DNA of 64,000 bases from Comamonas testosteroni (GTDB lineage Bacteria; Pseudomonadota; Gammaproteobacteria; Burkholderiales; Burkholderiaceae_C): positions 62,001-126,000 of the forward strand of contig NZ_KZ984450.1 of NCBI RefSeq assembly GCF_003569915.1, given 5' to 3'. Below, piece after piece: positions 27,636 through 32,632 of this stretch. Each line of letters opens with the position of its first letter. Position 1 is the first letter of the stretch. The translations under genes and the position numbers were made by a program. The notes beneath the pieces are model-generated. The model was not told the origin of the DNA and made no database searches. It worked only from the letters and a program-made list of their open reading frames with translations.

Positions 27636-27990
27636 CAGAGGCCGGGTCTCGCCCCGGCTGGCGACCTACTTTCTAGTGCACTAGAAAGTAGGCAAAGAGC
27701 GCTACCCGAGTGTCTGCGTCCCTGCGCTGCGCTCCGGGCAAATCTGCGTCACGCAATTCAGGCTGCGGTACGGCAAAACTCACTTCGAGCTTCGCTCTCC
27801 GTTCAAACACGTTGCCGTAAAAGTGATGACAAAGCATTGGCACTCTTCGGTGCCAATGCCCGCAGCCTGAACCGCGTGCCGCAGGCGCAGCCAGACGGGT
27901 GGGTGCAGGAGCCGACGGCCTGCCTGACTTGTGACGAAATTGGCTTCTAGTCCAGATATTGAATAGGCTAGTCGCTATTAAAAACATAGA
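27636..27990 (+). repeat. Long repeat, left copy, with perfect 28-base palindrome
   Basis: From CAGAGGCCGGG to the ATAGGCTAG/CGCTAT tail this stretch matches 31970-32330 along nearly its whole length. Shared blocks include TGCGTCACGCAATTCAGGCT, TTCAAACACGTTGCCGTAAA and GCGCAGCCAGACGGGTGGG. Near its left end, 27665-27692 is a perfect palindrome (two 14-base arms, CCTACTTTCTAGTG and its complement). The end of the unit is a copy of the dispersed repeat (27937-27988). Short frames through it are shared between copies but show no recognisable protein. Nothing else was seen in the 613-base gap 27478-28090. Confidence 0.75.
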
Positions 27991-28090
27991 AAAGCTATCC
28001 CAAGTTCGAGATTGATTTCTGCTTTTTGAAGCGCTGCAGTGTCGTTTATTCAAAGATTAATATCTTCAAATAACTATTAATCAATTCAAA

Positions 28091-29998
28091 TTAGAATAAT
28101 TTTCTAACAGCAGAAATCCAGTATGGTTCGAAATTTTTACCAAGATCACATTTAATATAATTTTTTGCAAAAGATATTTTGTTTTCACCTTTGTCAAAAA
28201 AATCTTCCGTCAATGTTTTTTTATCTTTTATATTTAAATTCAAAAAATCCAATAAATTGCTACTACCATACTGCAAAGTAGTTCTTAAAAATATGTCCTT
28301 AAGGACAGAGAAATTTTGCATCTCATTGTGTAAATTCGTTGCATTGATCAAGTCAATCAAAACTTCTTCACGTAATGAAAATTCTATTTCCGCTGGACTA
28401 ACATGTTGGCTATCTATATCAACAATATTTATTGACGATTCACTTTCTATTCGCACTATTCTTTTGAAAAAAAGATTTTTAATACCTTTTTGTAAAAGAA
28501 CATGCTCAGCTTGAGCATCACTATCTACTAAGCAAATGGCTTTACCTTTAAAGCCAGCCTCTTTATCTGAAAGCGGTCCAGAAAGATACTCATAAACTCG
28601 TCTGACTTGCTTAAATCCACCAAGAGGAACAATTCTCAGATTTTTGGCACTAACAAGATCAGAAAGATAGTGCTCCAAATAAATTTTATCCGACAACCCC
28701 TCACAAAATATCCAGTTATAAGCTTTATCCCTCAGCATACTAACCACAACCGACTGAATCATATCCTGATAGCTTTTTAATTCTATTTCTTTTGGATACT
28801 TTCCGCTTGTATTTTTAACGCTCTGATTTATTTTTTCTCTAAAATTTTCCAAATTAAATGAATAAAATTCGATACCACTTGCAGTATTTGAAAGTGAGTG
28901 AATATTTCCAGATCTTATTATTGGAAGAAATCCATACCAATGAGTGTTAATCAACACCTGTGGTGCTGGTTCGCAAAGCATTGGGATATTGGCAATTTTT
29001 TCAAATTGATCATGACATGCAGCAACATGCATTGACGCGTCGGGCTCATCAATAGCCAAAACCACTTGGTAATCTCTCTGCTGGGAGCGAGATAGCAATG
29101 CATATGACAGATCTATAAGCGCTTGCTTTTTTTCCCCAGAACTTAAATCCTTAATAATGGTTTCGCTGCCAACACCTTTTTTATGCAGCACCTTAATTCC
29201 AAAATAAGCTGCAAAAACCCGATCAATTAAATCATTAATGGTTAATTGATCCTTTTTCTTACCCTTGTATGTGTATTTTTCCAACGATGCATTTATTTCA
29301 TCAATAAATGCTTTCAATTTATCATTTATTTCTTTAATGCTTTCTTTGCTAATCGAGTCCTGAATTTTCTTCTTTATATCTTCATCAAGCAATTTTTGAA
29401 CATAAAAAGACTCCATTCTTGTAAAGTCTAGCGAATCCGCTTCTGCCGGAAGATAAATATACCTATAATAAGATTTAATTCTTTTCAAAAATTCATCTAA
29501 ATCATTTTTTGATATGTCTATCTCATTATCCAATAATTTATCAATATCATTTCCAAAATATGGAATATGAATCTCATTGGTCTTATGCATGACGCCAATG
29601 AAAATCAAATAATGTGTTTCGCTATTAATTGATAGATTTTTTAAACCTTCAATTGATTCTTTGAATTTTTTTATGAATGGCGTGTGTGCGAGAACATCTG
29701 TATTCCATAAATAATTACTAATCAATGCAGCTATCTTTTTATCCTTTTTCTGCAAATGAATTTTATCTATAGGTATAAGAAATAGCGGAGATATAAATGC
29801 ATCGTCTTGATTTCGCTTTGACTCATTATTTATAACCCAGTCACCTCCATAAAAAAATCTATCTAAAGCTTCAAAAATTGATGTTTTCCCCACACCATTT
29901 GGACCAAGAAATGCCGAAAAAGAAGAACCATAGGATATTGGTATGTAATGAAGATTTTTATACGTTTTATAGTTCTTTAATGCCAGACCAATAATCAT
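28091..29998 (-). CDS. OLD-like ABC ATPase with C-terminal TOPRIM nuclease domain
   Basis: The 635-residue protein has an SMC/ABC-type ATPase: Walker A GPNGVGKTS at 32-40, signature LSSGEKKQ at 285-292, Walker B VVLAIDEPD at 312-320 and an H-loop-like NTHW at 351-354. A TOPRIM-like domain follows: the acidic FCEGLSDKIYLE at 431-442, then VPLGG at 457-461 and the metal-binding CLVDSDAQ at 489-496. This order is that of OLD-family nucleases, Gabija GajA and PARIS-type ATPase/TOPRIM pairs. AAGGAGC precedes the ATG, 16 bases after the helicase stop, so the two form an operon. The gene is strongly A+T-rich with many AAA/ATT codons, unlike all neighbours, which is a sign of transfer. A role in phage or plasmid defence is inferred. 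Confidence 0.85.
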   Translation of the reverse strand: MIIGLALKNYKTYKNLHYIPISYGSSFSAFLGPNGVGKTSIFEALDRFFYGGDWVINNESKRNQDDAFISPLFLIPIDKIHLQKKDKKIAALISNYLWNTDVLAHTPFIKKFKESIEGLKNLSINSETHYLIFIGVMHKTNEIHIPYFGNDIDKLLDNEIDISKNDLDEFLKRIKSYYRYIYLPAEADSLDFTRMESFYVQKLLDEDIKKKIQDSISKESIKEINDKLKAFIDEINASLEKYTYKGKKKDQLTINDLIDRVFAAYFGIKVLHKKGVGSETIIKDLSSGEKKQALIDLSYALLSRSQQRDYQVVLAIDEPDASMHVAACHDQFEKIANIPMLCEPAPQVLINTHWYGFLPIIRSGNIHSLSNTASGIEFYSFNLENFREKINQSVKNTSGKYPKEIELKSYQDMIQSVVVSMLRDKAYNWIFCEGLSDKIYLEHYLSDLVSAKNLRIVPLGGFKQVRRVYEYLSGPLSDKEAGFKGKAICLVDSDAQAEHVLLQKGIKNLFFKRIVRIESESSINIVDIDSQHVSPAEIEFSLREEVLIDLINATNLHNEMQNFSVLKDIFLRTTLQYGSSNLLDFLNLNIKDKKTLTEDFFDKGENKISFAKNYIKCDLGKNFEPYWISAVRKLF

Positions 29999-30014
29999 TT
30001 TTGCTCCTTAAATT

Positions 30015-31817
30015 TCACAAATAGACCACTCGATGTATTGCCCGCGTCGAAGCCACATAAACCAACCGCGCCTCCAACGCCCCATCCTTCTTCACATCCT
30101 TGGCCTTGCGCTCCTCATCCGAAGTCACCACGGCCACCACAGGCCACTCCAGCCCCTTGCTCGCATGCATGGTCATAAGCTTGATGGAGTCTTCCTCGGG
30201 CTTGAACTGGCCTGACTTTTTGCGCATGCGATAGGGCAGCTTGCGGCGTTGCAGGGCGTCGGCGCATAGCTCCATCTCGTCGTAGTGGCGGCACAGCACT
30301 GCCATCTCACCCCAAGCATGGCCTTGGGCATGCTGGTCGGCCAGCAGTTCGGCCACGCGGGCGGCACGCTCGGGCAGCGTTGGCAGGTCTATGACGATGG
30401 GCTCGGGGCCTTCGCGGCCGCAGCTCAAGGGTTTGAGCAGGGGGATGCCGTCTTCGTCCTTGGCGTCTTCGGGCGTGAGCATGTCGCCCGCCACGCGGTG
30501 GGCCAGCTGCAGTATCTGGCGCGTGTTGCGGTAGTTGATCTTGAGGATAGTGGTGCGGCCCGCCGCCTGTATGCCCACGCTTTTGAGGCTGAAGTTGCGC
30601 TTCTGGCCCCGGTCGTAAATGCTTTGCGCATCGTCGTAGAGCAGCAGCAGGCTGTTGGTCGTGGGGTCCACCATCTGCGTGACCAGGCGCAGCCATTCGG
30701 GCGCAAAGTCGTGGCCTTCGTCGATGAGGATGGCGTGGTACTGGCCTGCGGGGATGTGTTTGTCATCCACGCCTTTGATGACGCTGCGCGCAATTTCCTC
30801 GAACTTTTTGCTGACATGCAGCGCATCAAGTTCAGGCGTGAGCAGGTTGTAGGCCGTGAGCTGGGCGCGGGTCCATTTGTCCCAGTGCATGACATGCACG
30901 CGGTCAGACAAGCCCTTGGCTTCCATGCTGGCCGCGAGTTTGACGCCCAGCGGCTCGTTGTAGCAGAGCACCAGAATGGGCTTGCTGCCCGGCCCCTGTG
31001 TCTGCGCCAGATGTTCGGCGCGGTAGCCGAGGATCATGGTCTTGCCCGAGCCCGCCACGCCGTGAATGACGCGGTGGCCGTCGCCCAGGCTGCGGGCCAG
31101 TTGCTCCTGCTGCAGGTCCATCACGCGCATGATGTCGGGCAGCTCGTCTTCGTCCTGCGCCGCATCGTTGCCAAACAGACTTTGCTGCTGGGGCACACGC
31201 ACTTCGGGGAAGAGTATCCAGCGAATGCGGTCCAGCTGCGGCAAGGTGATGGAGCGGCCAAAGCTGTGCGGGAACATGTCCCACAGGCGCTGCTGAAAGG
31301 CCTCGGCATCAACCGTCTCCAGCATTTCGTCCTGGCAGATGACGAGGTGGGCAGGCAGTGCCTCGCCCAGCCCCGCCGCATCAAACTGCTTGCGCGTGAT
31401 GCGGGTGAAGACGACGCCATGGCCCCAGGGAAAGGCCAGCTTGCCCTGATGCGGACCATCGCCCTGCACCAGCTGCGCATCGCGCTCCAGCGCGTTGATG
31501 ACCTGAATGGCGCAGTGGCGCGCCTGCTGCAGCGGGCTCATGACGACTTTGACATGGCCATCAGCCAGAATTTCAAAGCGCTCGCGCGTGGCGCTGCGGA
31601 TGGTGTCGAGGTGCCAGTCCTTGGTTTCCAGAATCAGCGCGCCACGGCGTGGGTGCACGACGACAAAGTCAGGCCGCGTCTGCTTGGGGCCAATGGGCAC
31701 ATCCCACCACAGCAGATAGTCGTCCTCCAGCTTTTGCTGCAGACGCTCGGCCAATCGTCGCTCTCCACTGGTCATGCGCCCCGCGCAGCTGCTCAGCGCG
31801 GGTATGAGTACCGCCAT
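30015..31817 (-). CDS. NERD-domain UvrD/PcrA-like helicase
   Basis: The 600-residue protein starts with a NERD nuclease-related domain: GERRLAERLQ and a PD-(D/E)xK-like set, Asp50 (RPDFVVVHP) with Glu64 and Lys66 (LILETKDW). Superfamily 1 helicase motifs follow: Walker A GVAGSGKT at 253-260, Walker B ILIDEGHDF at 363-371, LYDDAQSIYDR at 393-403, INYRNTRQI at 427-435, MTMHASKGLEW at 548-558 and LVYVASTRA at 585-593. It should unwind or translocate on DNA, perhaps with nuclease action. Unlike its partner it has normal high G+C content. It is the first gene of the two-gene operon and is analogous in role to GajB of Gabija, which lacks a NERD domain as far as I know. Confidence 0.87.
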   Translation of the reverse strand: MAVLIPALSSCAGRMTSGERRLAERLQQKLEDDYLLWWDVPIGPKQTRPDFVVVHPRRGALILETKDWHLDTIRSATRERFEILADGHVKVVMSPLQQARHCAIQVINALERDAQLVQGDGPHQGKLAFPWGHGVVFTRITRKQFDAAGLGEALPAHLVICQDEMLETVDAEAFQQRLWDMFPHSFGRSITLPQLDRIRWILFPEVRVPQQQSLFGNDAAQDEDELPDIMRVMDLQQEQLARSLGDGHRVIHGVAGSGKTMILGYRAEHLAQTQGPGSKPILVLCYNEPLGVKLAASMEAKGLSDRVHVMHWDKWTRAQLTAYNLLTPELDALHVSKKFEEIARSVIKGVDDKHIPAGQYHAILIDEGHDFAPEWLRLVTQMVDPTTNSLLLLYDDAQSIYDRGQKRNFSLKSVGIQAAGRTTILKINYRNTRQILQLAHRVAGDMLTPEDAKDEDGIPLLKPLSCGREGPEPIVIDLPTLPERAARVAELLADQHAQGHAWGEMAVLCRHYDEMELCADALQRRKLPYRMRKKSGQFKPEEDSIKLMTMHASKGLEWPVVAVVTSDEERKAKDVKKDGALEARLVYVASTRAIHRVVYL

Positions 31818-31969: not shown

Positions 31970-32330
31970 CAGAGGCCGGGTTTCGCCCCGGCAGGCGACC
32001 TACTTTTCTTGCTCGTGCAAGCAAAGAAGGCAAAAGAACACGCCCCGATTGTCTGCGTCCCTGCGCTTCGCTCCGGGCAAACCTGCGTCACGCAATTCAG
32101 GCTGCGGTACGGCAAAACTCACTCCGAGCTTCGCTCTCCGTTCAAACACGTTGCCGTAAATTTGAAGACGAAGCATTGGCACTCTTCGATGCCAATGCCC
32201 GCAGCCTGAACCGCGTGCCGCAGGCGCAGCCAGACGGGTGGGAGCGGGTACGGGCGGCCTGCGAGATTTGTGACGAAATTAGCTTTTAGTCCAGATATTA
32301 AATAGGCTAGCCGCTATCAAAAACATATTG
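31970..32330 (+). repeat. Long repeat, right copy in direct orientation
   Basis: The region from ACAGAGGCCGGG to the GCTATCAAAAACATA tail is a direct repeat of 27636-27990, so the operon is bracketed by it. The palindromic segment near the left end is degenerate (CCTACTTTTCTTGCTC then GCAAGCAAAGAAGG), and the tail is again a dispersed-repeat copy (32275-32330). No gene was seen in 31818-31969 or here. Confidence 0.75.
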
Positions 32331-32349
32331 AAGCTCTCCCGCACCCGTA

Positions 32350-32632
32350 CCCGTATCCGGTATTGCCCCTTGTGCCCACGCCTGCGACGGCGGCCTCTTG
32401 TTGCGCGCGGCTGCACCGAAGAGTGCAGACGCATCGTCATCACTTTTACGGCAACGTGTTTGAACGGAGAGCGAAGCTCGAAGTGAGTTTTGCCGTACAG
32501 CAACAAGAGGTTGTCGGCGCAGGTTGCCCGTAGCGTAGCGGAGGGACGTGGGCAGTAGGGGCCAGCTCTTTGCCTACTTTCTGGCACCAGAAAGTAGGTC
32601 GCCTGCCGGGGCGAACCCCGGCTCCTGTCCAC
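32350..32632 (-). repeat. Long repeat, third copy, inverted
   Basis: On the minus strand it begins GGAGCCGGGGTTCGCCCCGG and has the same palindrome (two 12-base arms, CCTACTTTCTGG, two bases apart, 32573-32598). It then shares CTCACTTCGAGCTTCGCTCT and TTCAAACACGTTGCCGTAAA with the other copies. Other stretches differ, so it is mosaic. It sits back to back with copy 2 and fills the gap before the dehydrogenase gene. Confidence 0.7.

Follow-up and report, generated by a model that had tools for sequence, protein, structure and literature searches.

Do two adjacent genes that together resemble a phage-defence machine belong to one system, or does one of them occupy a place that other genes can also fill? 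The question is raised by a locus of Comamonas testosteroni (contig NZ_KZ984450.1), where, within the 64,000-nt window analysed (all coordinates are positions within it), a minus-strand gene for a NERD-UvrD helicase is followed by a minus-strand gene for an OLD-like ATPase-TOPRIM protein. A preliminary description had made the pair a variant of Gabija or PARIS. To us the pair looks less like a machine of two fixed parts than like one of many states of an exchangeable slot, and we give a probability of about 0.7 to the reading that the locus consists of a resident helicase head gene and a slot for defence genes whose content is replaced through recombination within the 3′ end of the helicase gene. 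Between genomes the helicase is constant and the gene behind it, its cargo, varies; the cargo is AT-rich and the helicase resembles its surroundings; and in a genus of another family, g346, the tail of the helicase varies together with the cargo.

The two genes differ greatly in distribution. Genomes were sampled and not searched exhaustively, with most fragmentary or weak helicase hits left unfetched. Within the genus, 24 of 53 genomes carry the helicase (at 1e-40). It was found in 31 of the 150 genomes sampled from the family (E ≤1e-120), in 33/399 genomes of the order and 25/398 of the phylum (both at 1e-60), in none of 14 control genomes, and in 40 of 248 genomes of a second family, f55 (1e-80). 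The ATPase-TOPRIM gene was found in two of the 53 genomes of the genus (1e-10) and in two of the 150 of the family, where three others gave short N-terminal matches only; relatives were also found in Acidovorax and Rhodoferax. Of the 24 genomes of the genus with the helicase, 22 lack the ATPase-TOPRIM gene, and many have other genes in that place. Viewed from the cargo, all four known close ATPase-TOPRIM members (the window, C. testosteroni, Acidovorax and Rhodoferax) have a NERD-UvrD gene upstream in the same orientation, separated by 16 bp in the window, 25 bp in Acidovorax and ∼2.4 kb, with an opposite-strand ORF in between, in Rhodoferax. The survey of homologues for conserved pairing that had been proposed thus bears out the pairing from the ATPase-TOPRIM side (4/4) and not from the helicase side (2/24 genomes of the genus); gene adjacency, even in four of four members, need not mean a two-component system.

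In a part of the loci, what follows the helicase in place of the ATPase-TOPRIM gene is a different AT-rich gene, close and mostly codirectional. In all, 140 helicase loci (84 + 16 + 40; given here as L numbers) were examined, of which 136 had a called downstream gene; L067 and L068 were fetched but held no helicase and were dropped. The gene caller was a home-made heuristic and related genomes are non-independent, making the p-values indicative. A codirectional next gene within 100 bp and with a GC content lower by >0.10 followed 20 of 97 helicases; among the 926 other genes of these loci, 11 were followed by one (Fisher p 1.9e-14), while the same criterion applied to the upstream side of helicases gave 0/100; in the second family the figures were 8/39 helicases and 1/356 other genes. 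An AT-rich next gene lay within 600 bp in 37 of 136 loci, codirectionally in 35; for 28 of these 35 the distance from the helicase was −20 to 85 bp, seven of the 28 being overlaps. The difference in GC content between helicase and upstream flank averaged −0.002 over 97 loci (r 0.86), while that between cargo and flank was −0.23 over 21 loci, a value that is partly by construction because cargo was chosen by low GC. Since helicase and upstream flank agree on average, only the cassette looks foreign.

The cargos are of many kinds. They were identified by searches of the Pfam and PADLOC libraries, some by blastp to an identified cargo, and comprise Hachiman HamA/HamB (L105, by library search), a protein of PADLOC SIR2 models (L037; L039 and L195 via blastp to L037), Lamassu LmuA/LmuB (L042; L112 via blastp), AAA_13/PDC-S06 (L046), a pair of AriA-like and DUF4435 proteins (L149; AriB 2.6e-7), an NsnB-like protein (L151), NACHT (L050) and radical SAM (L141) proteins, a transglycosylase with a membrane-protein-like ORF (L137, 80–84% alike in L138; two Comamonas genomes), a 5′-nucleotidase, PDC-S08 (L245), an HEC-01 pair (L249), an Old-like protein (L254) and a SIR2-like protein, PDC-S25 (L191). 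The partner genes of the SIR2 cargos read, by eye and from sequence alone, as HerA. At the thresholds used, L136, L139, L142, L258, L193 and one gene of L247 had no match in Pfam and PADLOC, and cassette genes of L110 and L253 had none in Pfam and PADLOC, respectively (one library each); for L193, L247 and L253 only part of the genes were searched in both libraries. These eight loci hold candidate new defence genes. No relatives of three unmatched cargos were found in plasmids at 1e-5. A single common origin of all cargos was considered and rejected: blastp at 1e-5 links just 21 pairs among 93 AT-rich downstream ORFs from 55 loci. At L243 an AT-rich helicase gene overlaps that of a 1350-aa P-loop protein (nSTAND3/NACHT below cut-off); two more large AT-rich ORFs come next, and the first of them reads by eye as ATPase-like.

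The place at which the constant part gives way to the variable part lies inside the helicase gene. Among nine Comamonas helicases mean identity is 0.81 just before the codon of the motif VI arginine, 0.54 at that codon and 0.34 ten codons later. Comamonas cargo loci have only 8–11 residues after this arginine, and the window helicase stops 12–20 codons sooner after it than six of seven anchorable loci from outside the Comamonas clade, the seventh being equally short. We infer that the 3′ end of the window helicase is its junction with the cassette.

The clearest series comes from g346, in which a common helicase and a common LysR gene enclose a different cassette at each of eight loci, with no blastp link among the eight cassettes at 1e-5. 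In the seven loci searched (all but L251), defence-library matches were obtained for L245, L249 and L254 and weakly for L246, and none for L247, L258 and L193. Identity is 0.89–1.0 from 13 codons before the motif VI arginine to codon +7 after it, drops to 0.3–0.7 (about 0.5) beyond, and recovers over the final bases of the LysR gene; the last 16–30 helicase codons vary with the cassette. These changing tails have a GC content of 0.27–0.43, as against 0.65–0.67 in the helicase body, and all eight keep the NERD-UvrD tail motif (shuffled-tail rate 0.003); among 100 other long-tailed helicases, 23 have the motif in its strict and 54 in its loose form. That AT-rich tails keep a helicase motif is most simply explained if the cargos came with the 3′-terminal part of another NERD-UvrD gene attached. 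Over all loci compared, the tail-minus-body difference in GC was −0.175 in the 26 cargo-bearing loci and −0.005 in the 86 that lack cargo (p 9e-9).

The arrangement that we propose is as follows. A long-resident NERD-UvrD helicase-nuclease gene would bear one of many alternative defence cassettes, codirectional and directly behind its stop codon. Cassettes would be swapped by homologous recombination with DNA bearing another NERD-UvrD 3′ end together with its cargo, the crossover falling near the motif VI codons, and the incoming genes may be expressed from the helicase transcript, as the short helicase-to-cargo gaps suggest. For the cargo in the window, knowledge of the OLD family suggests an ATPase that gates a metal-dependent TOPRIM nuclease cutting phage or host DNA after infection; the helicase could separately bind and then unwind or degrade phage DNA ends via its UvrD and NERD domains. 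Such a slot suggests that a defence repertoire can turn over on a landing pad provided by a conserved and probably defensive gene, which may also lend its promoter, and offers a simple rule of discovery, namely to inspect the gene behind a NERD-UvrD helicase.

Several observations weigh against this proposal. No AT-rich next gene lies within 600 bp in 99 of 136 loci, and two such genes run the opposite way (L045, L048); two further g346 genomes, L242 and L280, have a 71%-identical helicase with no AT-rich gene close behind. Calling cargo by GC content misses cargo in AT-rich hosts, as at L243, and the comparison of tail GC omits short tails, which takes out 11 of the 37 cargo loci, the window among them. 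Identity among the Comamonas helicases also drops, to 0.63–0.80, at 55–80 codons before the junction. The crossover is deduced from junctions, recombination itself being unobserved, and defence activity is predicted only, for either gene.

A different account of the same joint variation is that the locus is a true modular immune system, in which all cargos would use the helicase as a common sensor or DNA-processing subunit, a universal front end, and the swapped unit would be an effector with a matching C-terminal tail of the helicase, the tail acting as a recombination handle and also as an adaptor for docking the effector. We regard this as possible but improbable, and rank it below the exchangeable slot. 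Some cargos, such as those at L105 and L042, belong to systems that are known to work without this helicase (Hachiman as HamA with HamB, Lamassu as LmuA with LmuB), cargo persists behind helicases that are broken, by a split into two frames at L149 and by an internal deletion at L066, and many helicases have no such cargo. Moreover, the few residues past the motif VI arginine in cargo loci of Comamonas leave little for a docking tail. The tight, mostly codirectional and sometimes overlapping arrangement of the genes, the joint variation of tail and cargo in g346 and the constant company of the ATPase-TOPRIM gene and the helicase (4/4) would all be expected of a modular system, and CapK/CapS set a precedent, as generic genes that lie ahead of immune operons of diverse kinds (PMC13373217). 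If this modular account were true, the family-less cassette genes would be a ready collection of undiscovered effectors.

We turn to the proteins themselves. Both minus-strand genes are real, and their spacing and the AAGGAGC site (30009–30003) ahead of the second were located as had been described (Table 1). In the first protein the predicted combination of NERD and superfamily 1 helicase motifs was likewise borne out, with Pfam matches above cut-off to NERD (6e-12), UvrD_C (4.3e-18) and UvrD-helicase (2.6e-7); Pfam showed no regulatory domain. Residues 1–598 match PADLOC model C3a187 nearly full-length (positions 1–540 of 559, 2.8e-160), GajB models match in pieces (best 2.8e-20, PADLOC), and the PADLOC NERD-helicase model of DRT systems matches at 2.4e-17; in a PDB sequence search UvrD/PcrA-type helicases came first (best 1.8e-20) and GajB was weak (0.0036). 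In an alignment of 132 helicases (the window and 131 of 139 other loci, proteins with an inner stop or <540 aa being dropped), D50, E64 and K66 of NERD are kept in 129, 132 and 128 proteins, Walker A K259 and the acidic pair D366 and E367 in 132/132 and the motif VI arginine in 131/132. The helicase thus carries the active-site residues of a nuclease and a helicase, and is predicted to have both activities.

Table 1. Features of the locus and its flanks (window positions)
Feature	Location	Strand	Basis
NERD-UvrD helicase gene, head gene, 600 aa, host-like GC	30015..31817	−	ORF, Pfam, PADLOC C3a187
NERD domain (PD-(D/E)xK-like), residues 17–113, with D50, E64, K66	31479..31769	−	Pfam, alignment
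UvrD_C part, helicase motifs V and VI, residues 541–597	30027..30197	−	Pfam, alignment
Putative exchange junction, motif VI R592 codon to stop	30015..30044	−	identity profile of nine Comamonas copies
AAGGAGC ribosome-binding site of second gene, inside 16-base gap	30003..30009	−	sequence
ATPase-TOPRIM (OLD-like) gene, 635 aa, GC 0.32, cassette cargo	28091..29998	−	ORF, Pfam, PADLOC
Walker A GPNGVGKT of ATPase	29882..29905	−	read from sequence
TOPRIM-like stretch, residues 428–494 (E433, D492, D494), below Pfam cut-off	28517..28717	−	Pfam, alignment
Approximate AT-rich cassette, distal limit set by eye from base composition	28045..30044	−	composition, identity profile
Dispersed genomic repeat copy, not locus-specific	27694..27993	+	repeat search
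Second copy of dispersed repeat	32033..32332	+	repeat search

The second protein appears to have the predicted OLD/PARIS-like architecture. Its ATPase domain matches AAA_15 (1.7e-18) and AAA_21 (6.2e-13), OLD-like_TOPRIM scores 19.5 bits, under the Pfam cut-off of 23.2, and the residues read as TOPRIM acids are invariant in the four aligned sequences, the window's included. The profile search that had been suggested gave an AriA match of the ATPase half (6e-19, residues 2–353), by a PADLOC model that also matches other cargo ATPases, and the AAA_15 match; a full-length GajA match did not emerge (best 2.5e-6, best stretch residues 5–49 only), nor did AriB among the best 25 of 28 PADLOC families or DUF4435 among 13 Pfam families. 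No PDB chain was better than E 0.38, that one a Rad50 ATPase, and AlphaFold2 models of the two proteins, built from four-sequence alignments, had pLDDT values (38.7 and 39.9) too low to show TOPRIM or NERD folds. Phage records gave no match at 1e-5 nor, in a second search, at 1e-30; two scans of viral contigs, with short peptide patterns sensitive to close relatives only, found none. In C. testosteroni NFYY023 (L034/L031) an ORF of 345 aa, transposase-like by eye, follows the first nine ATPase-TOPRIM codons and residues up to 72 were not found, an interruption that amounts to a natural loss of the cargo. The best plasmid relative (34%) lies between pglX and pglZ in the BREX operon of an Acinetobacter plasmid (L205), with no helicase among the seven features listed. 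The second gene stands as a foreign-looking candidate defence gene, and the earlier assignment of both as probable defence genes, near and codirectional enough for one operon, stands as a prediction. Foreign composition, which the preliminary description claimed for the pair, applies to this gene (GC 0.32) and not to the helicase (GC 0.63), helicases on average having the GC content of their upstream flank.

Could this helicase and this ATPase-TOPRIM protein nevertheless form a dedicated two-gene relative of Gabija or PARIS? The linkage in four of four members, a content of UvrD and ATPase-TOPRIM proteins as in Gabija and the partial matches of GajB models speak for such a system, but we consider it unlikely: the Gabija order is gajA-gajB, the reverse of the order here, the matches to GajA and AriB are short and lacking, respectively, within the families just given, the BREX-embedded relative has no helicase listed, other cargos occupy the same place, and most helicase-bearing genomes of the genus (22/24) are without this ATPase-TOPRIM gene. 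That unrelated defence genes simply cluster by chance, in a plain defence island of which the helicase is one member and its 3′ end nothing special, is very improbable, since the enrichment is downstream, codirectional and close (20/97, versus 0/100 upstream) and the junction is sharp and within helicase coding sequence, although NERD-UvrD genes do occur in other settings.

Two such settings are a Nostoc plasmid, where the gene adjoins type III-B CRISPR genes (L210), and Pantoea, where it is part of a type VI secretion cluster and is followed codirectionally by a VasL-domain gene. The latter is one of six enterobacterial or Vibrio records, with incomplete gene tables, in which the helicase has no recognised codirectional defence gene directly behind it; one of the six is chromosome-sized, and in one an opposite-strand DNA methylase lies 0.5 kb beyond the helicase. 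Such records, like the BREX-embedded relative and the cargo behind broken helicases, favour a slot over a single system.

The flanks were examined as well. The 300-bp direct repeat on either side of the pair (27694–27993 and 32033–32332, 90% identity) had been taken as a sign of transfer, a claim that did not survive: it belongs to a family with 20 matches in the genome, the window's included (40 of 82 candidates scored), and, being dispersed, does not mark the two genes as a unit. Mobilisation by flanking repeats was set aside for the same reason. The repeat family is also present at 32367–32525, and several genomic copies form inverted pairs. Of 53 Comamonas genomes, 34 have the oxidoreductase gene that precedes the helicase, and 30 loci were read. 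In helicase-bearing genomes the helicase lay ≤1.5 kb from it in 9 of 14 loci; in helicase-lacking genomes no AT-rich gene was called beside it in 16 loci, the less similar of which may represent another locus, and two of these have one 250-bp window each at GC 0.40 and 0.46. At L294, a Comamonas locus without helicase, the oxidoreductase gene is directly followed by a gene that resembles, over its first 22 residues, the post-cargo gene of L136, L137 and L140, which speaks for the exchangeable slot.

How does the arrangement compare with known systems? We found no published description of the helicase with an exchangeable cassette in a search that left subscription literature mostly aside, nor a paper on C3a187 under that name; the portions available to us of PMC12458937, PMC10952713, PMC10865869, PMC10568477, PMC10910872, PMC13373217 and PMC10250203 do not describe it. 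For NERD, PMC10952713 gives Mokosh type I and Nhi-like systems, and PMC10910872 includes it in a list of putative CRISPR auxiliary genes. C3a187, 'NERD+UvrD', and not GajB, is the best match of the window helicase, which leaves the last 19 positions of the model unmatched; the name of the model is silent on exchangeable cargo. The locus resembles Gabija (GajA OLD nuclease with GajB UvrD helicase) in setting a UvrD helicase beside an ATPase-TOPRIM protein, but the helicase has a NERD domain and comes first, a long GajA match is lacking, and the cargo is not conserved between genomes. Any likeness to PARIS (AriA/AriB) lies in the ATPase half; the window protein combines ATPase and TOPRIM in one chain without an AriB match in the families shown, and a PARIS-like pair of AriA and DUF4435 sits elsewhere as a separate cargo (L149). 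Single-gene nucleases of OLD class 1 share the ABC-type ATPase and TOPRIM-like stretch in one protein, and a relative of the window protein occurs with no helicase listed beside it, but the TOPRIM of the window protein is below threshold and its closest PDB chain is the Rad50 ATPase.

The same place with different defence cargo in relatives, the pattern of a defence hotspot, was found in g346 and in the Comamonas clade. In this the locus is like cDHS1 and cDHS2 of P. aeruginosa, which combine a fixed chromosomal place and conserved flanks with varying defence cargo, cDHS1 having a reportedly lower GC content and the two having medians of 26 kb and 6 kb (PMC10250203). Those hotspots, as described there, have other flanking genes and are larger, whereas here one to few genes, codirectional with the helicase, cut into its last codons. 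CapK/CapS (PMC13373217) are similar in that a conserved set of genes precedes immune operons of many kinds; they are regulators, whereas the window helicase has no Pfam regulatory domain.

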